Assembly (NCBI GenBank): GCA_937861115.1
Contig: CALMBD010000013.1
Coordinates: forward strand, 1-40,911
Source: an uncultured Bacteroidota bacterium
Lineage (GTDB): Bacteria; Bacteroidota; Bacteroidia; Chitinophagales; Saprospiraceae
Direction: 5' to 3'
DNA: 40,911 nucleotides
The first letter of the stretch is position 1. Every line of letters begins with the position of its first letter. Below are positions 11,448 through 26,559 of this stretch, piece after piece. Under the pieces are notes generated by a model that searched no databases, was not told the DNA's origin, and saw nothing but the letters and a program-made list of their open reading frames with translations. The translations under genes and the position numbers were made by a program.

Positions 11448-11463
11448 CGCCAAAGCCGTACCA
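11448..11463 (-). promoter_or_regulatory. Sigma-54-like promoter of permease 2
   Basis: On the minus strand TGGTACGGCTTTGGCG fits the sigma-54 consensus TGGCACG-N4-TTGCA with the invariant GG-N10-GC spacing. It lies 25 bases upstream of the ATG at 11423. Confidence 0.65.
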
Positions 11464-11507
11464 AAAGACTAATTATTTGATTATCAGAATAATAAGGAAT
11501 ACAGAGG

Positions 11508-11543
11508 TGTACGGAAACGGACACGATTGTGCGGAGGTGGACG
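11508..11543 (-). promoter_or_regulatory. Two tandem enhancer-type sites of permease 2
   Basis: Plus-strand reading: site 1 TGTACGGAAACGGACA (11508-11523), an imperfect palindrome; site 2 TGTGCGGAGGTGGACG (11528-11543), degenerate in its right arm. Centres are 20 bp apart and 60 and 80 bp from the promoter centre. The same layout recurs before permeases 3 and 6. Confidence 0.6.
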
Positions 11544-11653
11544 CCCCGGGCGGTATTTGAAACCGGGTCAAAACCTTACCCTGACGAACACCGTACCGGC
11601 GGGATATTTCATAAAGGGCTCTTTCAGTACAATTCTTGCGGTTTCCATTGTTT

Positions 11654-12103
11654 TCAGCGTTTCAGGAAGGCAATAAGGGCGCTAATCAGGGTCGGATATC
11701 CGATCAGGCACATGGCAGTACCAAATATGCCGAACACTACGGGAAATATCCAGGCATCCACGCCATCGAGGGTCGCCTGTTTGGGGTCGTCGGCCAGGTA
11801 CCAGATCGCTACCCTTTCCCCCACCTGAAAAGTGGCGGGGGTAGTGTACGTCTGCGAATAGTATTGCACCGTCAGGCCATCCGGGGTGACAAACTGTACA
11901 ACAGGCGCCACGGAAGTGGGTCTTGCTTCCAGCCCCCGTGCAGGGCGCCTGCGGTTTTCCAGCACCATACCTTCCGTTTGGATGCCGTTGCGGATAATGC
12001 GATAGGTCGACCGCCAACTGTTCCACGCGATAATGGCGAAAAGGGTGCCGCCCAGGGCAAGCATAATGCAGACGCCGAGCCAGATTTTATCCCGAAATTC
12101 CAT
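11654..12103 (-). CDS. DUF3592-like membrane protein
   Basis: 149 residues from ATG 12103. A longer in-frame reading up to 12433 is rejected because it would cover the separate gene at 12106-12387. N-terminal TM helix (KIWLGVCIMLALGGTLFAIIAW), a beta-rich extracytoplasmic domain with VAPVVQFVTPDGLTVQYYSQTYTTPATFQVGERVAIWYLADDPKQATLDG, and a C-terminal TM helix (IFPVVFGIFGTAMCLIGYPTLISALIAFL). The VGE-x-V-x-V/I-x-Y-x-x-x-x-P pattern is typical of DUF3592 proteins, whose function is unknown. The start is 2 bases after the stop of the preceding small membrane protein, so the two form an operon. Confidence 0.85.
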   Translation of the reverse strand: MEFRDKIWLGVCIMLALGGTLFAIIAWNSWRSTYRIIRNGIQTEGMVLENRRRPARGLEARPTSVAPVVQFVTPDGLTVQYYSQTYTTPATFQVGERVAIWYLADDPKQATLDGVDAWIFPVVFGIFGTAMCLIGYPTLISALIAFLKR

Positions 12104-12105
12104 TG

Positions 12106-12387
12106 TTACTTGAAATCGGGTTTTAAAATAAGGAACAACAGCATCAAAATGCCATAGCCAAGCAAGGGTACGGCAGGAACCCAGGCCAGGGTATTGCCCA
12201 GCCGCGGGTATCCGCCGGACTGCAGAAAATAGCACAGCGCTATCCACAGGCACATGCCGATGGTGACCATTGACAGCGACCCGTTGTCCGACGATGAAGC
12301 GCGCATCGAATCGGTTATGATAAAATACAAGGCCACAACGACGGCAATGCAGTCGACCGCAATGGCGATTTTGAATGACCAACTCAT
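12106..12387 (-). CDS. Small membrane protein, unknown function
   Basis: 93 residues, three predicted TM helices: FKIAIAVDCIAVVVALYFII, MVTIGMCLWIALCYFL and NTLAWVPAVPLLGYGILMLLFLIL. No family recognised. ATG 12387 is the only reasonable start. Its stop is directly before the ATG of the DUF3592-like gene. A TATTTGCAGG stretch in the 85-bp gap upstream may be a -7 element. Coding status is supported by the hydrophobic pattern and the tight junction. Confidence 0.75.
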   Translation of the reverse strand: MSWSFKIAIAVDCIAVVVALYFIITDSMRASSSDNGSLSMVTIGMCLWIALCYFLQSGGYPRLGNTLAWVPAVPLLGYGILMLLFLILKPDFK

Positions 12388-12472
12388 ATTTTGTCAGGCT
12401 TGATGAATAAGGAAGCAGTGATGCCCTGTACATTATTACACCTGCAAATATTGAATTATTTTGTTCAAAAAC

Positions 12473-14893
12473 TCACTCGTTGCGCAGCGTATCTACCGGA
12501 TTGGCCAGGGCAGCGCGCAGGCTCTGAAAACTGATCGTCAGCAGGGACATCCCCGCAGCCGCCAGGCCGGTTGCCGCAAACATCCACCATTGTATTTCGA
12601 TGCGGTAGGCATAGTGCTCCAGCCATTGCTGCAACAGGTACCAGGCAACAGGCGCCGACAAGGCAAAAGCCACCAAAACCAGCAGGAGAAAGTCGCCCGA
12701 TAACAGCCGCAGGACAGAGGCTACGGACGCCCCCATCACTTTCCGGATGCCGATCTCCTTGGTGCGCCGCTGGGCCATAAATGCCGCCAAACCAAACAGG
12801 CCGAGGCAACTGATGAACAGGGCAACGCCTGTGGCCAGGTTTATGATTCGCGCCAGGCCGGTCTCCGACTCATAGGTCGCTTTAAGGGTTTCATCATAAA
12901 AACTGTATTTGAACGGCTCGGAAGGATAGAACGCCTTCCAGCCGGCTTCCAGGTCGCGCAACACAGGTTGCCAGTCGGCCGGCCGGCGCGAAGCGAGTTT
13001 TATGTTGAGGTTCCCCAGGCCCTCTTTGTCGCACATAAAGGCCACAGGCTCGATCTTTTCAGAGAAAGACAGGGTGTGAAAGTCGGTGACAACACCCACT
13101 ACCGGTACGGCGTGGTCGCTTCCCGCTTCTTTCAAAAACTGGCCGACAGCCGCCTGTGGCGAGGCAAATCCGAACTCCTTTACGGCGGTCTCGTTGATCA
13201 CATACTCCTGCACCGTATCACTCATCCGAAGGTTGCGCCCGGCGAGCAGCGGTATGTTGTACAGGGGAATAACGCCCGGGTCAGCGTATTTGCGGTACAA
13301 ATTGCGCATGACTTCTTCCCCTTTTTCATTGACCCGGGAGTGGGTATTGCTCGAATAAGACCCGGAGAACAGGGGCTCACCCAGGGCAATGCCGGCCACA
13401 CCCGGCAGTTTTTTCCATTCTTCAGCCAGGGTGAAGTGCTTTTCCCGATATTCCGGTTGGCGCATCAGTTTCCAGGGCGCCTCCACCAGCACGACAGCCT
13501 CACGCTCGAAACCGAGGTCTTTGTGGAGCATAAAATGGAGCTGCTGTCCGACGATGACGGCGCCGGCAATGAAGAGTTGTGCAATGCCAAACTGGAACAC
13601 GATGAGGCTTTTGCGCAAGGTGATACCGCCTGAGCCCCGCCGGGTGTCCGTATGGCCGCGCAGTACCTGTACCGGCTGGGCGCGCATGGTGAGCCAGGCG
13701 GGGTAAATCCCGGACACCAGGCTCACTGCCAGCACCAGTCCCGCGAGGAAAAGCACCGTTTTTTCCGGCCGGGCATATTTCAGAACCTCTTCGGGCAACA
13801 TGTCGGCGTAATAATGAAAAAACACGCGGGTAAGTACCACAGAGAGCGCAGCAGCAAGGGAGGTCACTACCACCGTTTCACCAAGAAAATCGCGCAGGAT
13901 GGCCGCCCTGCTGCTGCCCAGCGTTTTGCGTATGCCAATTTCGCGGGCGCGTTGCGGAATCTGTGCGGTGGCCAGGTTGATATAATTGATACAGGCCAGC
14001 AGCAACAGGAACCCGGCAATGCCGGTCAATACGAACAATACTTTTTTGTCTGCCGTGCGCGCCGAACCGCCATAGTCGACGGCGAAATGGATATCGCCCA
14101 TCGGCAGCAGCACGTGCCAGCGTTTCATGTTCCACTTGGCCAGCCTTTCGCGGCTGTTGTCGTCGGAGAGCCGGTTGATGCGATCCAGTACGTCGGAGGG
14201 GCTGGCGTTTTCAGCCAGCAGGAGGAATAATTCGTTGTTGGAACTGACCCCGCCCCAGGCATCGTCGACGATCTTTTCCGGCTTCCAGCGGCGGAACTCC
14301 TGGCCCGTGAAATGACTGGGATAGTCCAGGTCGGCTACTATTCCGCTTACCCGGTAAACCAGGGTATCATTGTAGGTCAGCATTCTTCCGCTCACCTGCT
14401 CCGGTGTAAGCCCCGGAAAATAACGGGCTGCCCGGCTTTGTGTCAACACCACCTGATCGGGTTGGGCCAGCGCCGTAGCGGGATTGCCTGCAAGCCATTG
14501 ATAGCGAACAAATTGAAAATACTGAGGCGAGGTGGCCACCATGTTTTTGGGATTTTCCACCATCGTGCCGTTTTCCGGGAGCGCACTGCTCATGCCCTGT
14601 TCAAAAACAGGTATGGCCAATTCGACACCCGGTATCTCCGGCGCGCGTTTGGCCAGTGGCATCGGCGCGCCGGTATTACCCGATTCGGAACCGTCCATCA
14701 GGAAACGGCTCGATACCCTGTACATCCGGTCGGCGTGCTCATGGCCGGTATCATAACTGAATTCGTAAGTGGTGTACTGGTACATGATCCATGCGGCGCT
14801 CAGACCAATGGAAAGCCCCAGAACGTTCAGCAGGGTGAATATGCGGTTGCGCCAAAACAGGCGCAGGGTGAGTTTGATAAAGTTGGACAGCAT
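12473..14893 (-). CDS. FtsX/MacB-type ABC permease, paralog 3
   Basis: 806 residues, start MLSNFIKLTLRLFWRNRIFTLLNVLGLSIG. Standard two-unit plan: TM1, periplasmic domain (MYRVSSRFLMDGSESGNTGAPM...), TM2-4 with REIGIRKTLGS, second unit with TM5 (IVFQFGIAQLFIAGAVIVGQQ) and KEIGIRKVMGA, C-terminal NPVDTLRNE (slightly different from the SLRSE ending of the others). No ATPase. Upstream it has the most symmetrical member of the shared palindromic sites at 14990-15025. The gene after it (12387) is 85 bp away. Confidence 0.92.
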   Translation of the reverse strand: MLSNFIKLTLRLFWRNRIFTLLNVLGLSIGLSAAWIMYQYTTYEFSYDTGHEHADRMYRVSSRFLMDGSESGNTGAPMPLAKRAPEIPGVELAIPVFEQGMSSALPENGTMVENPKNMVATSPQYFQFVRYQWLAGNPATALAQPDQVVLTQSRAARYFPGLTPEQVSGRMLTYNDTLVYRVSGIVADLDYPSHFTGQEFRRWKPEKIVDDAWGGVSSNNELFLLLAENASPSDVLDRINRLSDDNSRERLAKWNMKRWHVLLPMGDIHFAVDYGGSARTADKKVLFVLTGIAGFLLLLACINYINLATAQIPQRAREIGIRKTLGSSRAAILRDFLGETVVVTSLAAALSVVLTRVFFHYYADMLPEEVLKYARPEKTVLFLAGLVLAVSLVSGIYPAWLTMRAQPVQVLRGHTDTRRGSGGITLRKSLIVFQFGIAQLFIAGAVIVGQQLHFMLHKDLGFEREAVVLVEAPWKLMRQPEYREKHFTLAEEWKKLPGVAGIALGEPLFSGSYSSNTHSRVNEKGEEVMRNLYRKYADPGVIPLYNIPLLAGRNLRMSDTVQEYVINETAVKEFGFASPQAAVGQFLKEAGSDHAVPVVGVVTDFHTLSFSEKIEPVAFMCDKEGLGNLNIKLASRRPADWQPVLRDLEAGWKAFYPSEPFKYSFYDETLKATYESETGLARIINLATGVALFISCLGLFGLAAFMAQRRTKEIGIRKVMGASVASVLRLLSGDFLLLVLVAFALSAPVAWYLLQQWLEHYAYRIEIQWWMFAATGLAAAGMSLLTISFQSLRAALANPVDTLRNE

Positions 14894-14919
14894 GGAACAG
14901 AAGGTTGTTGCTGCAATTG

Positions 14920-14935
14920 TCCATACACTATGCCG
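14920..14935 (-). promoter_or_regulatory. Weak sigma-54-like promoter of permease 3
   Basis: Minus-strand CGGCATAGTGTATGGA keeps the -24 GGCA but has GG instead of GC at -12. It is listed because its distance to the palindromic sites (70 and 90 bp, centre to centre) equals that of permease 6 and its distance to the ATG (27 bases) fits. Confidence 0.4.
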
Positions 14936-14989
14936 AATTTTCTATGCATTGATTTTCAGTAATTTACATGCATAAATGAAAAAACGGGC

Positions 14990-15025
14990 TGTACGATACC
15001 GTACACCCTCGTGCGGAATCGTACG
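14990..15025 (-). promoter_or_regulatory. Two tandem enhancer-type sites of permease 3
   Basis: Plus-strand reading: site 1 TGTACGATACCGTACA (14990-15005), perfect TGTACG/CGTACA arms; site 2 CGTGCGGAATCGTACG (15010-15025). Centres are 20 bp apart, two helical turns. The two sites are also inverted copies of each other, so a hairpin is possible; the position next to the GNAT stop at 15052 would allow a second role as terminator. Confidence 0.65.
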
Positions 15026-15051
15026 GCGCTTTGGGGTGCCTGTTAATCCTG

Positions 15052-15582
15052 TCAGGAAACCGCTGCGGCCAGGGTCTTTTCCATGATGAGGAAAACGAGC
15101 GGCTCCGTCGGCGTACCGAATTGGGGTGGACCGTCATAGGGCTGGGTATCGCCGGTCTGGTAGTAACCGTGCCGTTCGTACCAGGCGATGAGTTCGGTGC
15201 GTTTCGACAGCACACGCATATAGATGGAGCGGCAGCCGGTATGTTTGGCCTGTGCTTCCGACGCAAAGAGGAGTTGCTTGCCGATGCCTCCGGCCTGTTT
15301 TTCAGGGTAAACGGAGAGCATGCCGAGGTACAGCCGGTCGCCGTGCTTGTCGAGGAAAACGCAGCCGGCCAGTCCTCCGGAGTCATCGCTGCATTTCAAA
15401 ATGACGGCGGTTTCCTTGTCGAGCAGGGTTCGCAGGTTTTCCGCGTCGGTGCGCAGTTCGCCCAGAAGAAAATCTGCCTCGGTCGTCCAGCCTTTGCGGG
15501 ATGCCTCACCCCGGTAAGCGGCATTGATCAGCAGGAGTAATTGAGGGATGTCGTCGGCAGTGGCAGTACCAATGTGCAGCAT
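15052..15582 (-). CDS. GNAT-family N-acetyltransferase
   Basis: 176 residues. Typical GNAT fold: N-terminal IGTATADDIPQLLLLINAAYRG, motif with LYLGMLSVYPEKQAGGIGKQLL (acetyl-CoA pyrophosphate loop Q-x-x-G-I-G), and the C-terminal segment ELIAWYERHGYYQTGD. Substrate cannot be told; the ITADDxxQLxxLxNxAYRGE start occurs in small-molecule acetyltransferases. It lies 75 bp downstream of the outer-membrane barrel gene on the same strand and may be read from it. Confidence 0.9.
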   Translation of the reverse strand: MLHIGTATADDIPQLLLLINAAYRGEASRKGWTTEADFLLGELRTDAENLRTLLDKETAVILKCSDDSGGLAGCVFLDKHGDRLYLGMLSVYPEKQAGGIGKQLLFASEAQAKHTGCRSIYMRVLSKRTELIAWYERHGYYQTGDTQPYDGPPQFGTPTEPLVFLIMEKTLAAAVS

Positions 15583-15657
15583 GTAATCGCAGAGGTTGTG
15601 GTATTAGAGTATTTTAAAGAAGCAGGAACAAACCGGCAGGTTATATGTTTGCAACCA

Positions 15658-16359
15658 TCAATTGGCCGGCTTTATTTTTATCCTGAACTGGTACACCAGT
15701 CCGACCATAAAATCCATCCTGTCTTCCACGTCAATATTCGTCACCCGGTCGCCGAAATCGACACGAAGCCTGCCGGCTGTTGCGCGGGCATTCAGTCCTT
15801 TCCAGAGCTGCGTTTCCACCCCAAGACCGTATTTGAGCATGCCCTGCTTGTCTTTTTGCCGGTACGATTGAGCGCCGTCCATGACCGTGACATCAAAATT
15901 CCGCTTTGTTTCGTTTCCGTAGCCGAACAGCAAAATGTTTTTCCGTTTGCCGAGCGCTACGCCGAGCGTCAGCCCCAGCCCGCTTTGCGTGCTGTTTTCG
16001 TACTTTATGCTGCGCTGTGCTGCCGGTTCCGCATAAGCCAGGTCGCCATCCGTAAAACCGACCTGAAACTCGACACCCGCCAATATCCTGTCCCGAAAAA
16101 ACTGCTTGCGAAACCCGGCCGCCCAGTCGAGCACAAAACGGGAATCCTGCGCCAGAATATCGACACCGTCTACAAAAGAGCCGCCGAATATGTTTTGCGA
16201 ACCTGCAGCGACGCCGAGGTAAATACCGTCAAAAAACCTGACGCTGGTATCCTGCCGGACCGTTTGGCGCCGGTCGGCGGGGCTCGCAATGGCTTGTTGC
16301 GTCAATATAAAGGCCAGCATCGGCAGGAGGTACGTCGTATAACGATTCAATCGGATCAT
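15658..16359 (-). CDS. Outer-membrane beta-barrel protein
   Basis: 233 residues from ATG 16359 (MIRLNRYTTYLLPMLAFILTQQAIASPAD), a Sec signal peptide with cleavage near ASA/IAS. The mature part alternates hydrophobic and polar residues with many Gly/aromatic pairs: FFDGIYLGVAAGSQNIFGG, FVLDWAAGFRKQFFRDRILAGVEFQVGF, LGLTLGVALGKRKNILLFGYG, and a C-terminal strand FMVGLVYQFRIKIKPAN. This is the pattern of small OmpA/OmpW-like barrels. A longer frame up to 17712 is only an antisense shadow of the permease 4 gene. It starts 74 bp after permease 4 stops, so the two may share a transcript, possibly linking an inner- and an outer-membrane function. Confidence 0.85.
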   Translation of the reverse strand: MIRLNRYTTYLLPMLAFILTQQAIASPADRRQTVRQDTSVRFFDGIYLGVAAGSQNIFGGSFVDGVDILAQDSRFVLDWAAGFRKQFFRDRILAGVEFQVGFTDGDLAYAEPAAQRSIKYENSTQSGLGLTLGVALGKRKNILLFGYGNETKRNFDVTVMDGAQSYRQKDKQGMLKYGLGVETQLWKGLNARATAGRLRVDFGDRVTNIDVEDRMDFMVGLVYQFRIKIKPAN

Positions 16360-16433
16360 ATCGTGGACAGGTTTAAATGGGTAAACTGCGTCTCGGTTTT
16401 TCGGACCTGATTTTCCCTGTAAACAGTGTATCG

Positions 16434-18869
16434 CTACTCGCTCCGCAGCGACCGTACGGGATTCATCAGCGCCGCCTTCACGCTTTGGAAGCCCACCGTA
16501 AAGAAGGCAATGCAAACAGAAATGGCCCCGGCTGCTGCGAATACTTGCCAGCCGATGGCTATGCGATACGGGAAATCGGCCAGCCACGCCCGCATGATGT
16601 ACCAGGCAACGGGTGAAGCGATGACAATGGCCAGTCCGACCAGTTTGAGAAAATCTTTGGCCAGGAGGCCCGTTATTCCCGTCACGGAGGCGCCCAGCAC
16701 CTTGCGGATGCCGATCTCCTTGGTGCGCTTGTGCGCGGCGAAGGTAGCCAGCCCGAAAAGCCCTAGGCAGGCGATCAGAATAGCCAGTCCGGAAAATACC
16801 GTAAAGAGTTGCCCCTGCCGCATTTCCGCCTCGTAAAGCCGCCCGAAGTCCTCGTCGAGGAAACTGTATTCGAAGGGGTTGTCGGGGTTGAATCGCTTCC
16901 AGGTGCTTTCGATATGCGCGAGTGCGGCCTGCACATTCGTCCCGGTTTTGATAGAAATGCGGAACAGGTTGTTGCGTTGCCGCGGGATGAAAAATATCAT
17001 CGGAATGATCTCCGAGTGCAGGCTTTCGAAGTGGAAATCTTTCAGGATACCCACTACCTGCGCATCCTCCCGGCCGCCGTACACCAGTTTTTTGCCGATG
17101 GCATCGCCGGGTGTTTTCCAGCCGATGGCGCGTGCGGCCGTTTCGTTGAGCAGAAAACTCTGCGTGGAATCCGTGGCAAAATCGCGCGAAAAACTGCGCC
17201 CTGCAGCCAACGGAATATTGTAGGTCGGCACAAAATCCATGTCCACGGCGATCATTTTCAGTGTTGTCGTCAGGGGCGACATCGTATCGCCGATCTGCAC
17301 GCTGGTGCCGCCCACATCGTCGAGCAGTTGCCCGGCGGGCAGGCGCGAAGAGCGGCAGGCGTTCAGTACATTGGGGTTGTTCAGCAGTTCGGCGCGGAAG
17401 GTTTCCCATTTGGGGATCAGGTCGCGGTTCTGGACCATCGTGACGACGTGTTCCTTGTCGAGCCCGAGTTCTTTGTGCTGTAAAAAATTCAACTGCCGGT
17501 ATATGACGCCGGTACCCACCAGCAGTACGATGGAAATGCAGAATTGGGCCACTACCAGCACCTTGCGCATGGAAACATTCCGGCTTCCGGTTTGCAGATT
17601 GCCCTTCAAGGCCTCGACGGGCCGGAACGAGGAAAGGAAAAAAGCGGGGTACAGCCCGGCCAGCACGCCCGTCGCCAGGGCAACGCCGAGCAGCAATAAC
17701 GGGATGTACCATACCGACAACAGCGAAGGTATCAACACAATACCCAGGGTCTGCTTCAACAAAGGGATTGCCCCGGCAGCAAGGATCATGGCCAGGACGG
17801 TGGCGCCAATGGTCAGGAGCACGCTTTCGCTGAGGAACTGACCCGCGATCTGTATGCGCAACGCGCCGGCAGACTTCCGCACCCCGATCTCGCGTGCGCG
17901 GGAGAGGGAAAATGCCGTGGAAAGGTTGACGTAGTTGATACCTGCAATCAAAAGGATGATCAGCGCGATGATACCGAACATGCGCACTCCGGCATAGTCG
18001 CCGCCCGGTTCTATCTCGTCGTCGTGGTGACTGCGCAGGTGGATGTCGGTCAGGCGCTGGAGGTGCAGTTGGGTCCAGGACGAAGGTTTGGGCGCCTGCG
18101 GATTGTTGCGTTCCGGAAATACCTTGTCCAGAAAATCCGGGAACCGCGCAGCCATCTTTTCGGGATCAAAGCCCTCATTAACAAGCAGGTAAGTATAAAA
18201 AGCATTGTTGCTAAAGTTGTTTTGAAGGTTGTCGTCGCCGTACAGCACCGAATCGCGCAGCGACGGGAACGATATCAGCGCATCGGGGTAAAAATGAGAG
18301 GTGCCCTCCCGGAAATCGCGGAATACGCCCGCCACCTTGAACTCAAACTGGTTGTTCAGGCGCAGCGACTGATCGAGCGGGTCCCTGTCGCCGAAATACC
18401 GCTTTGCCGTCCGCTCCGACAGCAATACCTGCCAGGGCGCCGCAAGGCCTTTTTCCGCATTTCCGCGCAGAACAGGAACGGTAAAGACCCGTGTAAAGTT
18501 GGAATCGGCGAAGAAAAAATTGCTTTCCTGGAACAGATTGTCGCCTGAACGCACCGAAACCGTCGTCTGCAGCAGGCGGGTGATGCGGTCTATCTCGCTG
18601 AACTCTTGCTTCAGCAGTCCCGCAAAGGGTGGCGCGACGGCGCTCAGGTGCAGGTTTTCGGAACCGTCGGGGTCGTGGAAGGTGCGCGTGACGCGCCAGG
18701 TGCGGTCGGCATTGGCATGCTGGCGATCGTAACGCAGTTCTCCTGCCACATAAAGGGCGATGAGAAGGCAGCAAGCCAGTCCGATGCCCAGACCGGCGAG
18801 GTTGAGCATGGCCTGGAGTTTATGGCGACTGAGGTTCCGGAGGGCTGTTTTGATGTAGTTCTGGATCAT
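16434..18869 (-). CDS. FtsX/MacB-type ABC permease, paralog 4
   Basis: 811 residues, start MIQNYIKTALRNLSRHKLQAMLNLAGLGIGLACCLLIALYVAGE. Two-unit permease plan with REIGVRKSAGA and KEIGIRKVLGA signatures and a NPVRSLRSE end. No ATPase. The upstream region (18870-19191, shared with the divergent AraC gene) shows neither the palindromic sites nor a GG-N10-GC promoter, so this paralog is probably controlled differently from 2, 3 and 6. The outer-membrane barrel and GNAT genes follow on the same strand. Confidence 0.92.
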   Translation of the reverse strand: MIQNYIKTALRNLSRHKLQAMLNLAGLGIGLACCLLIALYVAGELRYDRQHANADRTWRVTRTFHDPDGSENLHLSAVAPPFAGLLKQEFSEIDRITRLLQTTVSVRSGDNLFQESNFFFADSNFTRVFTVPVLRGNAEKGLAAPWQVLLSERTAKRYFGDRDPLDQSLRLNNQFEFKVAGVFRDFREGTSHFYPDALISFPSLRDSVLYGDDNLQNNFSNNAFYTYLLVNEGFDPEKMAARFPDFLDKVFPERNNPQAPKPSSWTQLHLQRLTDIHLRSHHDDEIEPGGDYAGVRMFGIIALIILLIAGINYVNLSTAFSLSRAREIGVRKSAGALRIQIAGQFLSESVLLTIGATVLAMILAAGAIPLLKQTLGIVLIPSLLSVWYIPLLLLGVALATGVLAGLYPAFFLSSFRPVEALKGNLQTGSRNVSMRKVLVVAQFCISIVLLVGTGVIYRQLNFLQHKELGLDKEHVVTMVQNRDLIPKWETFRAELLNNPNVLNACRSSRLPAGQLLDDVGGTSVQIGDTMSPLTTTLKMIAVDMDFVPTYNIPLAAGRSFSRDFATDSTQSFLLNETAARAIGWKTPGDAIGKKLVYGGREDAQVVGILKDFHFESLHSEIIPMIFFIPRQRNNLFRISIKTGTNVQAALAHIESTWKRFNPDNPFEYSFLDEDFGRLYEAEMRQGQLFTVFSGLAILIACLGLFGLATFAAHKRTKEIGIRKVLGASVTGITGLLAKDFLKLVGLAIVIASPVAWYIMRAWLADFPYRIAIGWQVFAAAGAISVCIAFFTVGFQSVKAALMNPVRSLRSE

Positions 18870-19191
18870 GGCCTGATCTTTTTAGTGTGGAGCGGCACTT
18901 CAAATAGATCGACTTTTTGTAGCGCCGTTGCAGCAGGGTGCTTCTTTTTTTTACCGGAAATCCCGGAAAGGCAAGGTTTGACCTTGGGCTCCTATTGGCG
19001 ACTCCTTATTAAATTATTGATATTCATGTAGTTAAATGGAGGTTGTGCCAATTAAAATCGCGGAATCGAAACCGTTTCATAAACACAATTTTGACAGTTT
19101 TTCCGACCAATAATTATTTATAAGGCTACCAAAGGTCGCATTTATTCAATTTTCAGTTGACCACCCTCCCGTATCTTTGTCCTGTCAAAAA
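18870..19191. promoter_or_regulatory. Divergent intergenic region, permease 4 / AraC
   Basis: 322 bp without a gene. It holds a perfect -7 element TATCTTTG at 19172-19179 for the AraC gene and a weak candidate (TCTATTTG, minus strand, 18901-18908) for the permease. No clear palindrome or terminator is seen. An AraC protein encoded here could act on both directions, but no direct-repeat operator can be pointed out. Confidence 0.45.
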
Positions 19192-20001
19192 ATGGAAATG
19201 GCATACCGGATCATACAACCTTGTGCAGCCTTGCAGCCCTATGTACAAATGTACTGGGCTTTCGACAGCCAGTTGGATACACCGGTGCGCAAGCGGGTAC
19301 CCGACGGCATGGCATCGGCGGTGATCAATATAGAGAATTTCTCGTGGATCGACCGCGGCGACAGCAGAGAAGCGCCCTACGGTGCACAGTTGCAGGGCCT
19401 TTGCACCCGACCGTACACCCTGTATGCGCAGCAAAAAACGGCTTCGTTCGGCGTCATCTTCAGGCCGGAGGCGTCAGGCCTCCTGTTCGGACTGCCGCTG
19501 CGCGACATGACGGATAGTGCCGCCGACCTGGAGGGGGTAATGGGTTTGCCGGCAAAAAACTGGATCGAGCAGATCCGGAACGCTGCCGACGACAGGGAGC
19601 GGGGCTGCATTGCCGACGCTTTCTTCCTGCGCCGGCTTCAACGCCGGGCGATCGCGCATCCCTACCTCGATAACGCCCTGTCGCTGATCCGGAAAAGCAG
19701 GGGCAATATCGAGGTGGAGCAGTTGAGCCGTCAATTGTTTGTCGGCCGGCGCCAACTGGAACGTCAGTTCAGGGCGCACCTGGGTCTGAGCCCCAAAATG
19801 GTGCTGCGCATCGAGCGGTTTCGCAATGCCCTGCAATCGCCACAGGCGTCTGCGGGGCGGGGCAACCTGACCGCCATTGCACATGCCAGCGGCTATGCCG
19901 ATCAGGCGCATTTTATCCGGGACTGCCGCGAACTGGCCGGCGAAACGCCCTCGCAACTGTTCGCGTTGTCGCGCGGACTGGACTCGGGGGTGTTGTTCTG
20001 A
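19192..20001 (+). CDS. AraC-family transcriptional regulator
   Basis: 269 residues from ATG 19192; ATG 19198 is equally possible, while TTG 19177 falls inside the -7 element and is rejected. N-terminal sensory part (MAYRIIQPCAALQPYVQMYWAFDSQ, then a beta-rich region with VPDGMASAVINIE and FGVIFRPEASGLLFGLP) resembles the DUF6597 type sensor. C-terminal double helix-turn-helix from about 160: GNIEVEQLSRQLFVGRRQLERQFRAHLGLSPK and LTAIAHASGYADQAHFIRDCRELAGETPSQL, the latter a standard second HTH. It is followed after 23 bp by a cupin gene, its most likely target. Confidence 0.9.
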   Translation: MEMAYRIIQPCAALQPYVQMYWAFDSQLDTPVRKRVPDGMASAVINIENFSWIDRGDSREAPYGAQLQGLCTRPYTLYAQQKTASFGVIFRPEASGLLFGLPLRDMTDSAADLEGVMGLPAKNWIEQIRNAADDRERGCIADAFFLRRLQRRAIAHPYLDNALSLIRKSRGNIEVEQLSRQLFVGRRQLERQFRAHLGLSPKMVLRIERFRNALQSPQASAGRGNLTAIAHASGYADQAHFIRDCRELAGETPSQLFALSRGLDSGVLF

Positions 20002-20024
20002 TTTTTTACTCAAATCAATTTCAT

Positions 20025-20501
20025 ATGTCAATACCACAGCCGCTTGCATGGCAGGCAGGGGAGGGGCAACGTTTGTCCTTCGCCAACATCAGTCTGGATA
20101 TGAAGGCAGACAGCGCAGCCACCAACGGCCGCTGCAGCGCCTTCGAGTACACCGCACCGGCCGCCTTCAGCGGACCGCCGCCGCATTACCACCGCAGCAC
20201 GGAGGAGATTTTTTACGTGCTGGAGGGCAGCCTCCTGTTTCAACTGGGCCCACGGCAATTCGAGGCGCGCGCAGGCGCGTTCGTGTATGTGCCTGCCGGC
20301 TCCGTACACACCTTCAGCAACCCTGCACCCGTGCCCGCGCGGGTACTGGTGGTCAATACACCGGGTGGTTTCGAAGGTTATTTCAGTGAAGTCGCCCGGC
20401 TCATGGCGACGGAAGCCGCATGGCCTCCGTCGGACCGGGCCGGCTTGCTGGCCCTGATGGCTAAATACGACACCTTCCCTGCCGAACGCCAGCCTGCATA
20501 A
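20025..20501 (+). CDS. Cupin-domain protein
   Basis: 158 residues, one cupin_2 barrel. Motif 1: PPHYHRSTEEIFYVLEGSL gives two His and a Glu; motif 2: YVPAGSVHTFSNPAP gives the third His, so a metal site is intact. Such single-domain cupins act as dioxygenases, isomerases or small-ligand sensors; the exact reaction is unknown. Downstream of the AraC gene by 23 bp, same strand. Its stop codon is one base from the stop codon of the convergent permease 5, leaving no room for a separate terminator. Confidence 0.88.
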   Translation: MSIPQPLAWQAGEGQRLSFANISLDMKADSAATNGRCSAFEYTAPAAFSGPPPHYHRSTEEIFYVLEGSLLFQLGPRQFEARAGAFVYVPAGSVHTFSNPAPVPARVLVVNTPGGFEGYFSEVARLMATEAAWPPSDRAGLLALMAKYDTFPAERQPA

Positions 20502-20502
20502 A

Positions 20503-23001
20503 CTACTCGCTGTGCAGCGCCTTTACCGGGTTGGCCAGGGATGCGCGCAGCGATTCGTAGCCCACCGTGAGGATCGTGACAAGTGCGATCAGCGCGATGG
20601 AGCCGGCAAACATGAAGAAGGTCAGGGTGGTCTGGTATTCAAAGTTTTTCAGCCACCTGCCCGACAGGTAAACGGCAATGGGGATGCCGATGAAGCAGGC
20701 GATCACCAGAATCCGGGCAAAAACGCGCAGCAGTAGCAGCAATATCTGCCGGTTGCTGGCGCCCAGTGTCTTGCGGATGCCGATCTCGCGGATGCGCTGC
20801 CTGGCCAGGAACGCAGCCAGCCCGTACAGTCCCACACAGGTGATCAACATGGCCAGTATGGAAAACTGTTTGGTGAGTTGCGCAACCTGGGTCTCGTTTT
20901 CATACATGCGGCCAAATTCCTCGTCGACAAACCAGTAGTCGAAGCCGAAATCGGGAAACGTCTGCTTCCACGCTTTTTCGATCGACGCGATCTTTTCACC
21001 CATTTTTTCAGCCGGCAGCCGCACATGTATGATCCTGTCGATGGGGTGGGGTTTGGCGCTGATGGCCAACGGCTCGATCTTGTGGTGCATGGATCGGTAG
21101 GGAAAATCTTCCACGACGCCCACGACGAGCCCGCTGACCGGCGCCCGGGTGGAGTCGGGCGGACCATAGCCCATGGAAAAATCGGGTCGTATAATCGTTT
21201 TGCCCACGGCTTCTTCCGGTTTCAGGTGCAGGGCATTTACGGCCGACTGGTTTAGCAATACCGCGCTGGAATCGGTCACGCGGCCCGGTTCAAAATCGCG
21301 GCCCGCAATGATCTTCATATCGAAGGTTCTGGGAAAGTCAAAGTCGCCGTTCAACTGGAACCACTCGTGCTGGTCGGTGTTGATCTCGGGAAACTGCATC
21401 TGCATGTTGATGGGGCCGAAGTAGTCGAGCCGGGGCAGGTGGTTGGCCAGGGTCATGGCCTGGATGTCGCGGTCCTGAAGCACCAGGTTTTTGAATATCG
21501 AAAACTGGCTGTCGGTAGCGGGGCCGGAAAAGCCGCCGTAGCGGATCGACAGGATCTGTTTGCCGGCCTCGTTGAGTTTGGAGTTGCGCATGAGGTTCAT
21601 CTGCCGCACCACCACGATCGACCCGACCAGCAGGGTAATGGCCACGGTGAACTGCACCGTTGTCAGGAACTGACGGAAGGTATTGGAGCCTTTGCGGAAC
21701 GCGAATTTCCCCTTGAGCACCACCGCCGGTTGGAAGCCGGAAACGAACAGGGCGGGATAACTGCCGGCCATGATCGTGACCAGTACAACCACGGCGCCCG
21801 TGATGAGCAGCATGGGGCCGTTGAACAGGTGACCCAGGGAAAAGGTCTTGCCGGTCATCTCGTTGAAAGGCGACAGGAACAGCGCGACGATGAGCAGGGC
21901 CAGTACGGTGGCGCCCAGCACCATCAGGAACGACTCGGCCATGAACTGGAAAAACAACTGGAGCCTGACGCCGCCGAAGGTTTTGCGCAGGCCGATCTCG
22001 CGGGCGCGGGTGACGGAGCGCGCCGTTGCGAGGTTGATGTAGTTGATGCAAGCCACCACGAGGATCAGACCGGCAATGGTGATGAATACCGAGATGTATT
22101 TGCGGTTGGCTGATTTGTGGTTGGTCGCCCAGTCGATCTCCTGGTCGAAGTGGATGTCGGTGATCTTCCGGATGACGACGCTGCCCTTGATATCGGGAGC
22201 GAACCGCGCGAGCATGTCACTGGCGCGCTTTTGAAGGTCGGCCTGGATGAGCGGGATCTGCTTGTCGTCGCGACATACGAAGAATGAACTGGTCCAGTAA
22301 CCCTGGTCGCCGTCGCCCATGGCAGTATTCAGCAGGTTCTCCAGGTTCGGGACGATTGGCTTGAGGGCGAGGATGTTGCAAATGTATTTGGGATGCACGT
22401 GCGTGTTGGAAGGAAAGTCTTCATACACTGCACTGACCAGCATGTTGATCTTTTGTCCCCGAGTGGTCCAGGTATGCGACACCTCGACCGTTTTGTTGAT
22501 CGGGTCCTCGTTGCCGAACAGTTCCGAGGCTGCGCTCTCGCTCAGGATGATGCTGTTGACCTCCTTCAGGGGTGCTACCGGACTGCCTTTGATCACCTTG
22601 ACATCGAGGATATCGGTCAGTGCCGACTCGGACCAGATGATATCTTCCGTCAGGATTTTTTTGTCTTTGGGCGCGTAGTGCACCGTGGTGGGCATGCCCT
22701 GGGCGTCGTAACTGGCGATAGCCCCGATGCCGGGGTAATTCTCCTTGATGTAATTGTCCCAGCCCGCCGGTGTTGCCGGGAAAGCATTGGTTTCTCCGTT
22801 CGGCATGACCGACCTCCAGCCCATGCGGTAGGTATGTGCCGCGTCGGGATGGTGGGTGTCGAAGGTGAGTTCGTCGCGCACATACAGGAAAATGAACAGG
22901 GCAGATGCGAGGCCGATAGCCAGCCCGAGGGTATTGACCAGCGCGTAGCCGCGTTGACGGGCAATGTTCCGGCTGGCGAGCAGGAAATAATTAAGCAGCA
23001 T
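20503..23001 (-). CDS. FtsX/MacB-type ABC permease, paralog 5
   Basis: 832 residues, the longest of the six, start MLLNYFLLASRNIARQRGYALVNTLGLAIG. The first periplasmic domain is slightly longer, and the second carries extra sequence around GPINMQMQFPEINTDQHEW. FtsX signatures REIGLRKTFGG and REIGIRKTLGA; C-terminal NPVKALHSE departs from the NPVRSLRSE seen in 1, 4 and 6. No ATPase. Upstream (23002-23115) there is a small palindrome TACAAAACGTTGTA at 23071-23084 but not the paired sites of paralogs 2, 3 and 6. Confidence 0.92.
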   Translation of the reverse strand: MLLNYFLLASRNIARQRGYALVNTLGLAIGLASALFIFLYVRDELTFDTHHPDAAHTYRMGWRSVMPNGETNAFPATPAGWDNYIKENYPGIGAIASYDAQGMPTTVHYAPKDKKILTEDIIWSESALTDILDVKVIKGSPVAPLKEVNSIILSESAASELFGNEDPINKTVEVSHTWTTRGQKINMLVSAVYEDFPSNTHVHPKYICNILALKPIVPNLENLLNTAMGDGDQGYWTSSFFVCRDDKQIPLIQADLQKRASDMLARFAPDIKGSVVIRKITDIHFDQEIDWATNHKSANRKYISVFITIAGLILVVACINYINLATARSVTRAREIGLRKTFGGVRLQLFFQFMAESFLMVLGATVLALLIVALFLSPFNEMTGKTFSLGHLFNGPMLLITGAVVVLVTIMAGSYPALFVSGFQPAVVLKGKFAFRKGSNTFRQFLTTVQFTVAITLLVGSIVVVRQMNLMRNSKLNEAGKQILSIRYGGFSGPATDSQFSIFKNLVLQDRDIQAMTLANHLPRLDYFGPINMQMQFPEINTDQHEWFQLNGDFDFPRTFDMKIIAGRDFEPGRVTDSSAVLLNQSAVNALHLKPEEAVGKTIIRPDFSMGYGPPDSTRAPVSGLVVGVVEDFPYRSMHHKIEPLAISAKPHPIDRIIHVRLPAEKMGEKIASIEKAWKQTFPDFGFDYWFVDEEFGRMYENETQVAQLTKQFSILAMLITCVGLYGLAAFLARQRIREIGIRKTLGASNRQILLLLLRVFARILVIACFIGIPIAVYLSGRWLKNFEYQTTLTFFMFAGSIALIALVTILTVGYESLRASLANPVKALHSE

Positions 23002-23115
23002 GGAAGAGGTGTTGATTCAACGGTTAAGTCTCCTGATTCGGAAATATGCGACCTGAAAGACATTGCATTCTACAAAACGTTGTACGGTTGAATCAGGATG
23101 TTTCTGAAAACGCAT

Positions 23116-23140
23116 GCCATCGGGTTAAATCCCGTATGGC
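23116..23140 (-). terminator. Hairpin after the exported DinB-like gene
   Basis: GCCAT-CGGG-TTAAAT-CCCG-T-ATGGC forms a 9-bp stem with one bulge, 6 bases beyond the stop codon at 23147. On the minus strand it is followed by ATGCGTTTTC, a short T run, so termination is plausible but weak. Confidence 0.45.
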
Positions 23141-23146
23141 TGCCAC

Positions 23147-23761
23147 CTATTCCCTGACTTTTCCCGAGAAAACACTCACTTTGGAGTTAAATGGATTGCC
23201 CGACGATCTGCGGAAAGAAACGACCTGCCCCACATGCCACAGGGCATCGGCAATCGGGCCGTTCAGCATGTTCCAGAACGGGAATTCGGTGGTCTTCTCT
23301 CCATTGACAAAAACGATGACATCCTCTTCCAGCCGTGCATTCGGCTGCTTGAGCAGGTCGCTGGCCTCCTTCAGGTTGTCCAGCGTCATTTTTCTTTTTT
23401 CGTCAAACGACAAAGGCGATGTCTCCTCTCCGCTGCGCACGTTGGGCTGGTGCTTCACCGCATTGACAACGATGACCGAAAGCCCCATAATATGATCGAT
23501 GGTCTCTTCGCTGGTTCTGGCCTCTGGTGTGGGGCGGAAGGCCAGGTCTTCCTGACGCAAACCTTCGGTTGCCCAGTAAAACCGGAATCCCAGTCCGTCG
23601 ATCATGCGGGCGACCACGTTTTCTGCTGTAAAGGAATCCGGATAGGCGGGTATTTCGCGGTAGGGCAAAGGAATGGATGGAGCGGAGGTGTCTGCTGCGG
23701 ACTGGGCGCCGAGCGGGACAGACAACGCAAGGGTCAGGGCAAAAATCAGTTGTATTTTCAT
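23147..23761 (-). CDS. Exported DinB-like protein
   Basis: 204 residues. Signal peptide MKIQLIFALTLALSVPLGAQ. Mature part is a four-helix DinB-like fold: YWATEGLRQEDLAFRPTPEARTSEETIDHIMGLSVIVVNAVKHQ, and DALWHVGQVVSFRRSSGNPFNSKVSVFSGK near the C-terminus. His residues in DHIMGLS and WHVGQVV are in the positions that usually bind metal; the third is less clear. DinB/YfiT proteins are mostly cytoplasmic thiol-dependent transferases, while exported versions occur in Bacteroidota with unknown role. It stands alone between two permease genes, with a repeat remnant upstream. Confidence 0.85.
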   Translation of the reverse strand: MKIQLIFALTLALSVPLGAQSAADTSAPSIPLPYREIPAYPDSFTAENVVARMIDGLGFRFYWATEGLRQEDLAFRPTPEARTSEETIDHIMGLSVIVVNAVKHQPNVRSGEETSPLSFDEKRKMTLDNLKEASDLLKQPNARLEEDVIVFVNGEKTTEFPFWNMLNGPIADALWHVGQVVSFRRSSGNPFNSKVSVFSGKVRE

Positions 23762-23808
23762 GTTTTTGATTTCAAAAGTAGGGCATCCGGGGTGGGGCGT
23801 AGGGCGTT

Positions 23809-23916
23809 TCCCGCAGATTGCCGCAGAAAAAATTCGCAGGTTGTCGCAGAATGGCCTGATAAGGTCGAAGATTCAAGGTCTTTTTCGGATGATTGATCTG
23901 CGCGAATCAGCGGGAA
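23809..23916. repeat. Dispersed repeat remnant (CGCAGATT type)
   Basis: Left part CCGCAGATTGCCGCAGAAAA and TTCGCAGGTTGTCGCAGAAT, right part GATCTGCGCGAATCAGCGGG in the other orientation. It is related in wording to the repeats at 3181-3436 and fills most of the 184-bp gap between the DinB-like gene and permease 6. Confidence 0.5.
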
Positions 23917-23945
23917 CTCCTCTCCATGTGCCGGGCCAAAATGCC

Positions 23946-26417
23946 CTACTCGCTCCGCAATGACTGCACCGGGTTTGCCAGCGCGGCCCGCAGGGCATGG
24001 AAGCCCACCGTCAGGAACGCTACCGCTATGGCCGCAGCGCCGGCCAGGGCAAACACCTGCCAGCCCGGTTCGATGCGGTAGGCGAAACCTGCCAGCCACT
24101 TGTTTGTCGCCCACCAGGCCAGCGGAGAAGCGATGAGGATGGCCAGCAACACCAGTTTCAAAAAATCCTTCGACAACATCCCGACCACCGAGCCGGCGGT
24201 CGCTCCCAGCACTTTTCGGATGCCGATCTCCCGGGTGCGCCGCTCGGCGGTAAATGCCGCCAGGGCAAACAGGCCGAGGCAGCCGATAAACAGCGCCAGA
24301 CCCGTGAAGATACCCAGTACGGCGCCCGTTTTGGCCTCCGTGCGGTACAGCCGCGCGAACGAAGCGTCCAGAAAATCGTGGTCGAACGGGGCGCCGGGGG
24401 CTGCCGCCTTCCAGAGCAGGCCGGCTTTTGCAATGGCCTGTTTTTCCGAACCCGCCCGAAGGCGCACGGCGATATAAGAGCCCCAGGTCTGGTAGGTTTT
24501 GGACGATTCGTGGAACAGCGCCATCGGCTCGATCGGCATTTTGACCGAACCGGTGTGGAAATCGCGCATCACACCCACCACCTGGAAGCGCTGGTTGGCG
24601 TTGCCGGGGTAGCGCATCCATTTGCCCACGGGACGCTCCCAGCCGATGGCCTTGACGGCCGTCTCGTTCAGGATCACGGAAGTCGAATCGACCGGGGAGT
24701 TGGGCATGAAATTCCGCCCTTCCAGTATTTCAATACCCAGCGCAGGCACAAAATCGGCGTCGGTCAGGAACGAACCGATGGGCAGGTTCTGCACGACCGG
24801 GTGACTTTGATCGCCCTGTTCCGGCTCGTAGAAATCGCCGAAACTTCCCAGCGAGGGTAAAAACGTGGAGTGTGTTGCCGCAATGGCTTCGGGTATTTGC
24901 AGCAGTTGCTGGCGAAAAGTCTCCCGCGCGGCGGGGTTCTCCAAATGCTGTGTGTTCCGGATGATCAACACGTTTTCGCGTTGCAGGCCCGGCGCCTGCT
25001 TCCGGGCGAATTCCAGTTGGCGGTACACGACCATAGCGCCGAGCATGAGGGCAATCGAAACGGAAAACTGGAATACCACCAGTCCGCTGCGGAGGCCTGC
25101 CTGCCCCCCGCCTGTTGAACCGGCGGCCGTTTTAAAAATATCCGCCGTTCGGAATTTGGACAAATAAAAGGCCGGGTACAAGCCACCGAGCAGCCCGGTC
25201 AGCAGCGGCAGGGCCAGCACGAAGCCCATGGTGTTGCGGGAAAACAGGTCGTCGGCAACCCATTCAAGGTCTGTCATCCGGTTGAACACCGGCAATGCCG
25301 CAATGGCCAGCACGGTCGCCAGCAGCATGGCCACCACGCTCAGCAGCAGCGATTCTGCCATGAACTGGCCGATCAGCGTACCGCGCTGGGAGCCGAGCGC
25401 CTTGCGCACGCCTACTTCGCGGGCGCGCTGCATCGAGCGGGCCGTGGAAAGGTTCATGAAGTTGATGCAGGCCAGCAGCAGGATCAGCAGCGCCACGATG
25501 CCGAATATCCGGACCTGCTGTCCGTCGCCAAGCGTGGAAAGCCGGGAAGCGAGGTTTTCATAGCCTAGGTGCAGGCTGGTCAGGGGCAGCAATTTGATGT
25601 CGTAGCGGTCGCCTTTGGCGAGTTGCGCCTCGAAGTTCTGGCCGATGCGTTCGTAGGCAGACGGCGCGTAGCGGTGCACCATCGCCGGGAACTGCGCCTC
25701 AAGGCCGGCCAGGCTTTCAGCGCCGGGCTTCTGCCGGAGCCTTACCCAGGTATCCACCTGCAGCCAGATCCAGCTCCAGGAAAAATGCTCCACTACCCGG
25801 AAATTGGCCATCGGTACGAGAAAGTCGAAACGCAGGGTCGAATTGGCAGGCAGGTTTTGCAGCACGCCTGTGACGGTGAAGACACGGTCGTTCAGCAGCA
25901 GCGGCTGCCCAAGAGGCGATGTATTTCCGAAGTATCGCTCCGCAGCCTGACGGGTCAGCACCATGCTTCCGGGCCGGTCGAGCGCCGAATGCACATCGCC
26001 TTCCTGCATGGGGAATCCGAACAGTTCGAGAAATGTCGTATCGACGGCCAGGGCCCTGTTTTCATTGAACAGCAGGGGTGCGTGTCCCGGCTGGTTGCGG
26101 CGCATGACCACATCGCCGAGGTCGAAGGAGCGCGCCATTATTTCGATTTCAGGGTAGTCGGCCGCAAGCCGGGGCCCGAGGGGCGGCGGTGTGTTGGTGG
26201 TGCGTTCCTCCTGGTCGCCCATTTTCAGGTCGAGCGCCACGGCGCAAATACGATCGGCGTCGGGCAGGAAGCGGTCGTAACTTTTCTCGTGCCAGACAAA
26301 CAGCATGATAAGCCAGCAGGCTGCCAGCCCGATGCCGAGACCGGCTATATTGACGAAAGAGAAAAACAATTGCCGCCGGAAATTGCGGAGGGCTATTTTG
26401 ATATAGTTGTAGAGCAT
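23946..26417 (-). CDS. FtsX/MacB-type ABC permease, paralog 6
   Basis: 823 residues from ATG 26417 (MLYNYIKIALRNFRRQLFFSFVNIAGLGIG). A 14-codon upstream extension to 26459 would overlap the sigma-54-like promoter at 26454-26469 and has no counterpart in the paralogs. Two-unit plan with REVGVRKALGS and REIGIRKVLGA, ending NPVQSLRSE. No ATPase. It carries the full shared control region: promoter plus two sites at 26524-26559. Confidence 0.92.
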   Translation of the reverse strand: MLYNYIKIALRNFRRQLFFSFVNIAGLGIGLAACWLIMLFVWHEKSYDRFLPDADRICAVALDLKMGDQEERTTNTPPPLGPRLAADYPEIEIMARSFDLGDVVMRRNQPGHAPLLFNENRALAVDTTFLELFGFPMQEGDVHSALDRPGSMVLTRQAAERYFGNTSPLGQPLLLNDRVFTVTGVLQNLPANSTLRFDFLVPMANFRVVEHFSWSWIWLQVDTWVRLRQKPGAESLAGLEAQFPAMVHRYAPSAYERIGQNFEAQLAKGDRYDIKLLPLTSLHLGYENLASRLSTLGDGQQVRIFGIVALLILLLACINFMNLSTARSMQRAREVGVRKALGSQRGTLIGQFMAESLLLSVVAMLLATVLAIAALPVFNRMTDLEWVADDLFSRNTMGFVLALPLLTGLLGGLYPAFYLSKFRTADIFKTAAGSTGGGQAGLRSGLVVFQFSVSIALMLGAMVVYRQLEFARKQAPGLQRENVLIIRNTQHLENPAARETFRQQLLQIPEAIAATHSTFLPSLGSFGDFYEPEQGDQSHPVVQNLPIGSFLTDADFVPALGIEILEGRNFMPNSPVDSTSVILNETAVKAIGWERPVGKWMRYPGNANQRFQVVGVMRDFHTGSVKMPIEPMALFHESSKTYQTWGSYIAVRLRAGSEKQAIAKAGLLWKAAAPGAPFDHDFLDASFARLYRTEAKTGAVLGIFTGLALFIGCLGLFALAAFTAERRTREIGIRKVLGATAGSVVGMLSKDFLKLVLLAILIASPLAWWATNKWLAGFAYRIEPGWQVFALAGAAAIAVAFLTVGFHALRAALANPVQSLRSE

Positions 26418-26453
26418 GGACGATCTGGTTGGGACTGGATAGTCGTTCATCTG

Positions 26454-26469
26454 CGCCAACCGCGTGCCG
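26454..26469 (-). promoter_or_regulatory. Sigma-54-like promoter of permease 6
   Basis: Minus-strand CGGCACGCGGTTGGCG has the full -24 core GGCACG, the GG-N10-GC spacing and a TGGC -12 core. It ends 37 bases before the ATG at 26417. Confidence 0.65.
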
Positions 26470-26523
26470 AAATTACATTGTTTTGATTGTCAGTATTTTA
26501 GAGGCAGGTAAAAAGAGGCGGGT

Positions 26524-26559
26524 TGTTCGGTTTCGGACACGGGTGCGCGGGAATGAACG
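26524..26559 (-). promoter_or_regulatory. Two tandem enhancer-type sites of permease 6
   Basis: Plus-strand reading: site 1 TGTTCGGTTTCGGACA (26524-26539); site 2 TGCGCGGGAATGAACG (26544-26559). Centres are 20 bp apart and 70 and 90 bp from the promoter centre, the same numbers as for permease 3. Confidence 0.6.

Follow-up and report, generated by a model that had tools for sequence, protein, structure and literature searches.

A candidate sigma-54 regulon connecting scattered FtsX permeases with one adaptor and ATPase locus in a Saprospiraceae bacterium

Permeases and promoter modules in the window

The stretch of DNA under study, referred to here as the window, spans 40,911 nucleotides of an uncultured Bacteroidota bacterium of the family Saprospiraceae (GenBank assembly GCA_937861115.1, contig CALMBD010000013.1, positions 1 to 40,911 of the forward strand) and carries six genes for duplicated FtsX permeases, numbered 1 to 6 and all read from the minus strand. 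Permeases 2, 3 and 6 are each preceded by the same control region, hereafter the module, which combines tandem upstream activator sites (UAS), a site resembling that of integration host factor (IHF) and a sigma-54 -24/-12 promoter. A first-pass annotation of the window had described the activator sites and promoters, and had proposed that a single sigma-54 activator encoded elsewhere links these transport genes. Here we describe the module, its copies in this and related genomes, and the two-component system and exporter parts to which it points.

All elements of the three modules lie on the minus strand. At permease 2, a duplicated FtsX/MacB_PCD permease (9039..11423), two 16-bp inverted repeats 20 bp apart form the UAS (11508..11543), the IHF-like site AATCAAATAATTA (11470..11482) fits the consensus at nine of nine positions and starts 19 bp upstream of the -24 box, and the promoter TGGTACGGCTTTGGCG (11448..11463) has its box start 45 bp after the UAS. 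At permease 3, of the same type (12473..14893), the UAS (14990..15025) is followed by the IHF-like site AATCAATGCATAG (14942..14954; consensus fit 8/9) and, 55 bp after the UAS, by the promoter CGGCATAGTGTATGGA (14920..14935), which has GG rather than GC at -12. Permease 6, again a duplicated FtsX/MacB_PCD permease (23946..26417), has its UAS at 26524..26559, the IHF-like site AATCAAAACAATG at 26476..26488 (8/9) and the promoter CGGCACGCGGTTGGCG at 26454..26469, also 55 bp after the UAS. Each of these permeases contains two FtsX stretches. Site 1 of the UAS stands letter for letter where the first-pass annotation had placed it (11508-11523, 14990-15005 and 26524-26539), and site 2, farther from the promoter by exactly 20 bp (11528-11543, 15010-15025 and 26544-26559), fits the looser pattern proposed for it in all three cases. 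The sigma-54 boxes are likewise present, the one that had been called weak being that of permease 3. The annotation nevertheless understated the region, of which the IHF-like element is, judging by its sequence and position, a third part.

Permeases 1, 4 and 5 had been said to lack the sites, and none of them has a module of its own, but this sets only permease 4 clearly apart. Permease 1 (6590..8950) follows permease 2 by 88 bp on the same strand and is probably the second gene of its unit, and permease 5 (20503..23001) lies behind permease 6 on the same strand and may belong to its unit, so each could be transcribed from the module of the gene ahead of it. Permeases 6 and 5 are separated by an open reading frame (ORF) of 204 aa (23147..23761, minus), also on the same strand and with no match in a Pfam search, and the ORF that comes next after permease 3 (11654..12433, minus) matches DUF3592 and is a possible member of the permease 3 unit. 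In the related genome G022, a 70% relative of permease 4 has a module just before its ORF and a 73% relative of permease 1 has its own module, so relatives appear to trade an own module against a position behind a module-bearing gene. Upstream of permease 4 itself (16434..18869, minus), and divergent from it, lie an AraC-type regulator (DUF6597 + HTH_18; 19177-20001) and a cupin protein, together covering 19177-20501; the AraC-type gene beside a permease without a module marks a possible switch of regulator. Elsewhere in the window (3468-4903), a protein that looks receiver-like by eye adjoins one with receiver and guanylate cyclase domains (PF00072 + PF00211).

Module copies in the genome and the candidate activator

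The genome amounts to 5.71 Mb in 348 contigs (labelled C below; the window is C13). The site 1 pattern TGTNCG-N4-CGNACA occurs at 11 places in it, compared with 2 for a reversed-pattern control, more than chance would give; six of these places belong to promoter modules, whereas the remaining five all fall within ORFs and resemble background. When up to 3 mismatches were allowed, the tandem pattern gave 12 matches per strand, compared with 3 in the control. Ten of the 15 distinct places listed are promoter modules and the remaining five have 3 mismatches each, while the tandem form without mismatch occurs at five places, three of them in the window.

We built a profile of 108 positions (R1) from ten modules, namely those of the window, C12, C284 (ahead of two permeases), C41 (heading permease units at 2906, 14811 and 25433) and C87 (ahead of one permease). 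A genome-wide R1 search returned 12 strong copies, 11 of which head duplicated-permease units, and the twelfth lies at a regulator/adaptor locus on C12. The window matches are 11448-11543 (60.6 bits), 14920-15025 (69.3 bits) and 26454-26559 (67.2 bits), and two matches came from outside the training set, C247:24306-24412 (E 1.7e-14) and C41:8404-8508 (E 5.8e-9), each with a duplicated permease immediately downstream. The next matches were the reverse reading of the C12 site and a 21-bit match without full activator sites. Weak matches below about 21 bits (on C169 and elsewhere) mainly matched the AT-rich middle and were not counted.

We found 19 duplicated FtsX permeases in the genome, on five contigs, leaving out C327:5942 (a 915-aa frame that matches MacB_PCD once) and seven frames of half the usual size (about 410-450 aa). 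A module stands at the head of the unit for 11 of the 19, and six more (permeases 1 and 5 in the window plus four on C41) follow such a gene in the same orientation, so that 17 of the 19 are presumed to belong to units headed by a module. A small ORF separates module and permease in three of the 11 (99 aa at C41:3066, 160 aa and lipoprotein-like at C41:14961, and 155 aa at L038:12082-12549). The 99-aa protein is kept between module and permease in another genome (L230:745-1044, a copy with no Pfam match), and small ORFs that look lipoprotein-like by eye also come first behind the module at L223:7344-7850, L207:3289-3777 and L216, with no permease following at L207 and L216. All six window permeases match TIGR03434, the 'acidobacterial duplicated orphan permease' (ADOP) family, below its cut-off (245-331 bits vs 622); the match of permease 5 is confined to its C-terminal two thirds, and those of the other five span the entire protein.

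The C12 locus holds the remaining parts. A sigma-54 response regulator (C12:12507-13883, minus), with REC (PF00072), Sigma54_activat (PF00158) and HTH_8 (PF02954) domains all over cut-off, is followed by a histidine kinase gene (C12:11118-12458; HATPase_c, with an H-box-like HEIMN). Divergent from the regulator, with the module in between, is a HlyD/MacA-like adaptor (C12:14282-15532, plus), behind which come two ATP-binding cassette (ABC) ATPases of LolD/MacB type, ATPase 1 (C12:15596-16273) and ATPase 2 (C12:16454-17137), about 51% identical to each other. The adaptor, ATPase and FtsX/MacB_PCD permease of a MacAB-type exporter are therefore present, and in relatives they form one cluster. 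Scores for the darobactin exporter proteins DarB/C/D lie below the NCBIfam cut-offs (adaptor 223 of 450, ATPase 1 278 of 375, window permeases at most 142 of 700). At E 1e-25, the genome has 11 ATPases of LolD/MacB type, none of them on the five permease contigs.

One sigma-54 factor is encoded in the genome (PF04552 match on C304, E 1.3e-50) along with three strong sigma-54 activators (E < 1e-67; C12, C277 and C307), and a module is found at the gene only for C12. On this evidence, the C12 regulator is very likely the activator absent from the window. In the loop that contacts sigma-54 it has GAFTDA. A simple-pattern search for the loop that contacts sigma-54, covering 59 loci (L035, the window's own genome; L135-L164 and L251-L279), found 41 loops, of which 34 read GAFTDA and five GSFTDA, although other variants would be missed by this pattern; most sigma-54 activators have GAFTGA. 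The accessible part of PMC4641369 lists GAFTDA among the variants that would maintain activation. A second regulator family, 42-45% related, immediately adjoins an FtsX-like permease (24-26% to those of the window) at six loci (L158, L159, L160, L162, L163 and L164), with a kinase alongside at five of them, and may be a sister system.

Conservation of the module and its targets

The anatomy of the module was compared in 52 copies with GG at -24 from the window's genome and four relatives (G007, G009, G022 and G027), reduced to 41 by removing 11 near-duplicates (>80% identical). The elements follow in the order UAS, A-tract, TGA-N-AATCA-R-N4-T-W-R and YGGCAC-N6-TG. A sigma-54 promoter is defined by GG at -24 and GC at -12, separated by 10 bp, with the G at -12 being essential. 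Among these 41 modules, which were chosen for their GG, the next base is C in 95% and the following one A in 98%; G stands at -12 in 95% and is followed by C in 32%. The window's genome has G at -12 in 11 of its 12 promoters. The IHF consensus is WATCARNNNNTTR with an upstream A-tract. In 38 of the 41 modules the best match to WATCARNNNNTTR sits at -19, counted from the box; an A-tract occupies -30 to -28, and agreement at 8-9 of 9 positions is seen in 26 of 41, compared with 6% of shuffles. A strict pattern with A at the sixth position fits only 5 of the 41, whereas R at that position plus one mismatch accommodates 26, so we call the element IHF-like and treat it as a candidate IHF site only. 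An inverted-repeat reading of the same region, TGANNNTCA, fits 25 of 41 and may represent a separate protein site.

Geometry was scanned with palindrome spacings of 19-22 bp allowed and with box and pair picked by score within range, so that the counts lean to good matches. Palindromes are spaced by 20 bp in 10 of the 12 modules of the window's genome, and by 21 and 22 bp in the other two. The distance from the UAS to the start of the -24 box is 55-56 bp in 11 of these 12 (45 bp in permease 2), 54-56 bp in all 42 modules of four relatives, and 62-66 bp in 13 of 13 more distant loci; measured on the sequences, the three linker classes are about one helical turn apart. In the shorter linker of permease 2 the spacing between IHF-like site and box is unchanged, so the 10 bp that it lacks fall between the UAS and the IHF-like site. 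As read from its elements, the layout is the textbook sigma-54 arrangement of an upstream enhancer and an IHF-assisted loop, as set out in the accessible text of PMC7057263.

We then compared the distribution of the parts in 60 genomes of the window's genus and order, at E 1e-100 for the regulator and E 1e-60 for both adaptor and permeases. Of these, 28 yielded the module, 27 the C12 regulator, 26 the adaptor and 26 duplicated permeases. Module, adaptor and permeases are concordant in all 37 same-genus genomes (26 with, 11 without), and module and regulator agree in 36 of the 37 (25 both, 11 neither, one without regulator) and in 59 of the 60 overall. The exception, G027, has module, adaptor and permeases with no regulator found at this threshold. 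Fisher tests of co-occurrence in the 37 genomes gave p of 1e-8 to 1e-9, not corrected for descent. With the C12 regulator being the sole strong activator that has a module at its gene, this agreement bears out, on sequence evidence, the first-pass proposal of one sigma-54 activator linked to transport genes. Among the 26 genomes, module number rises with permease number (rho 0.84, with the best 17 permease candidates scored per genome). Two genomes of other families, G046 and G052, each have one weak module match and a 42-43% regulator relative, with no adaptor or permease at E 1e-60, and were therefore scored as disagreeing with adaptor and permeases. The 11 same-genus genomes without module, regulator, adaptor or permeases at these thresholds (G001, G002, G004, G005, G011, G013, G015, G018, G019, G035 and G036) measure 3.2-4.6 Mb in ten cases and 5.8 Mb in that of G005.

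We inspected 42 modules of relatives, comprising all those listed in G007, G009 and G022 and four of six in G027. Thirty-eight lead to a permease (34) or an adaptor (4), and among the 34 three do so behind a small ORF and one reaches a permease in pieces (L228, G022:C4). Two module-permease units of G007 (C3:530429-530534 and C6:64950-65055; L209 and L210) are 99.96% identical over 5,610 bp and represent a recent duplication or an assembly artefact. At E up to 0.01, the module lies just upstream of the adaptor at 34 of 39 named adaptor loci and was missing at L194, L197, L199, L200 and L203; at L199 this is due to a contig end that truncates the adaptor. MacAB-type exporters also have an outer-membrane partner, TolC. 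At another locus in a relative (L166), one neighbour is an OmpA-type protein.

A sample of 247 genomes from 122 genera across the phylum was searched for the regulator at E 1e-95, with the best 6 candidates per genome scored, and yielded a relative in 89 genomes and 58 genera. Among the matches listed, 29 regulator loci besides that of the window's genome all have a kinase, and a divergent adaptor adjoins in 27 of them; the genus profile gave one strong match on these loci (L260) and otherwise weak ones or none. Twelve of the clusters were read further. In all 12 the adaptor is followed by the ATPase, and in 11 duplicated permeases come next, up to six in a row. Across the 12, identity is 74-83% for ATPase 1, 41-60% for the adaptor and 54-61% for the regulator, in a comparison that includes no control ATPase. 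The phylum clusters thus indicate that the common layout is one cluster, with kinase and regulator on one side and adaptor, ATPase and permeases on the other, and in the window's lineage most permeases are away from the cluster, yet under its putative switch.

A proposed switch and motor, weighed against alternatives

The module copies and what they precede make a strong case for a regulon. We consider it likely that one sigma-54 two-component system runs, through the module copies, a split MacAB-type exporter that consists of a shared adaptor with its ATPases and many permeases. That a single pair of adaptor and ATPase powers up to 19 orphan permeases, with the modules keeping the dispersed components under common control since an ancestral operon came apart, is a proposition we rate as evenly balanced.

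We infer the following chain of events. The C12 kinase (11118-12458) would phosphorylate the C12 response regulator (12507-13883), dimers of which would bind the two 16-bp palindromes; an IHF-like protein would bend the DNA between palindromes and promoter, allowing the AAA+ ring of the regulator to open sigma-54 polymerase at the -24/-12 box. Each permease half would then recruit one ATPase and the common adaptor, and one signal could deploy many alternative transporters. With none of the 11 LolD/MacB-type ATPases on a permease contig, it is economical to suppose that all permeases are served by the adaptor and ATPases of C12. Two unlike permease halves need two ATPase sites, and the presence of two unlike, adjacent ATPases suggests a heterodimer; that ATPase 1 and ATPase 2 form one matched to the two permease halves is our conjecture. 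A kinase-regulator pair of AtoSC/ZraSR type beside an exporter suggests envelope damage or toxic compounds as the signal, envelope damage being the probable one.

Several observations weigh against this scheme. Permease 4 and the permease at C247:40967-43402 have no module, although the contig extends only 546 bp upstream of the latter. Four of the 42 relatives' modules lead to neither a permease nor an adaptor, a 162-aa ORF following in two cases and no clear gene in the other two, and in one of the 12 phylum clusters (L281) the ATPase is not followed by a permease. The promoters of the window's genome vary at -12 (GC in 5 of 12, GG in 4, GA in 2 and AC in 1), the C12 module has only a weak promoter towards the adaptor, with GG at -24 and no G at -12, and the adaptor-side boxes are weak in relatives too. 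The presence/absence pattern may reflect few evolutionary events, and genome size correlates with module count (rho 0.66) and with permease count (rho 0.56, again with the best 17 candidates scored).

It is doubtful, though a serious alternative, that the permeases share regulation only, being co-induced with the adaptor/ATPase locus as a general envelope-stress set while each operates independently or pairs with other ATPases. In its favour are nine additional ATPases of this type in the genome (E 1e-25), the unrelated small genes present in some module units (the 99-aa protein and a lipoprotein-like one), and the sigma-54 regulon of F. psychrophilum, which covers protein quality control and envelope stress according to the accessible part of PMC9723704. 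Against this, permeases follow adaptor and ATPase in 11 of the 12 phylum clusters, where the further ATPases are solely ATPase 2-like when compared with the proteins of the window's genome (L284 and L287), and none of the 11 adaptor-less same-genus genomes has permeases. The level of sequence identity of ATPase 1 across these clusters would fit a hub.

It is distinctly improbable that the module is read by another activator, C277 or C307, with the C12 regulator as one of its targets. Such a reading draws on there being three strong activators and on the position of the C12 module, which could drive the regulator gene, but C277 has no HTH domain in Pfam, C307 has no receiver domain, and the genome scan placed no module at either. 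It is the C12 regulator that matches the module in 59 of 60 genomes (the only regulator whose distribution was compared) and that stands beside module or adaptor in related genera. We think it very improbable that the control regions are recent duplicates carried along with duplicated genes rather than held by selection: the permeases are paralogues, and the near-identical G007 units may show the kind of event required, but identity to permease 1 is no more than 26-38% for 17 other permeases of the window's genome (18 of 19 aligned), and the linkers differ between modules while palindromes, IHF-like site and promoter hold position. Chance palindromes in intergenic DNA, for which the five occurrences of the 16-bp pattern inside ORFs might speak, have a negligible probability and are ruled out by the reversed-pattern control and the whole-genome profile, with R1 E-values down to 5.6e-19 in one genome and strong matches outside the training set.

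If the proposed sigma-54 control of a split exporter is correct, ADOP-like orphan permeases gain a motor and a switch, and ATPase sharing would extend from importers to exporters. The data also suggest that an operon was apparently dispersed while its parts kept a three-element sigma-54 promoter. Large duplicated families of orphan FtsX permeases have no partner or control assigned in the literature that we found; what is now proposed for them is a candidate activator with a precisely located DNA site, together with a candidate adaptor and motor, all testable in cultivable Bacteroidota. The general link between sigma-54 and FtsX permeases is already known from a 2025 survey (PMC12316311), which, in its accessible part, reports for Bacteroidia, as for other classes, an enrichment of sigma-54 promoters ahead of FtsX-like permeases (COG0577) and presents this as the first evidence of the link; no enhancer, activator, adaptor or shared ATPase is named in that part. 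A literature search, beyond whose reach lay most subscription journals, returned no description of this enhancer, activator, regulon or shared-motor idea, and a word search of the main text of PMC3162934 found neither 'Bacteroid' nor 'permease'.

Among known systems, the switch resembles the sigma-54 two-component regulons of the NtrC family (AtoSC, ZraSR and NtrBC) in its REC-AAA-HTH_8 regulator and kinase, inverted-repeat enhancers, IHF-type bending site and -24/-12 promoters, but differs in its GAFTDA/GSFTDA loop and in having scattered exporter permeases as targets. Its parts are those of MacAB and DarBCD-type ABC exporters (a MacA/HlyD-like adaptor, LolD/MacB-type ATPases and FtsX/MacB_PCD permeases), except that the permease is duplicated and separate from the ATPase, that there are many permease genes per adaptor, and that scores against Dar and ADOP models are below cut-offs. 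The predicted division of labour recalls the multitask ATPases of sugar importers, MsmX and MsmK, in which one ATPase serves several separate permeases; ATPase sharing is established for such importers (PMC7658222, accessible text), whereas they are type I importers and the present system is an FtsX/MacB-type exporter for which sharing is deduced. Like ADOP (TIGR03434), of which 28 and 33 genes are reported for Dyadobacter genomes in the accessible part of PMC11573002, the permeases here are proteins of about 800 aa that form a large paralogous set without an adjacent ATPase. Their scores indicate resemblance to ADOP rather than membership, and, unlike for ADOP, an ATPase/adaptor locus and a regulator can be named here.

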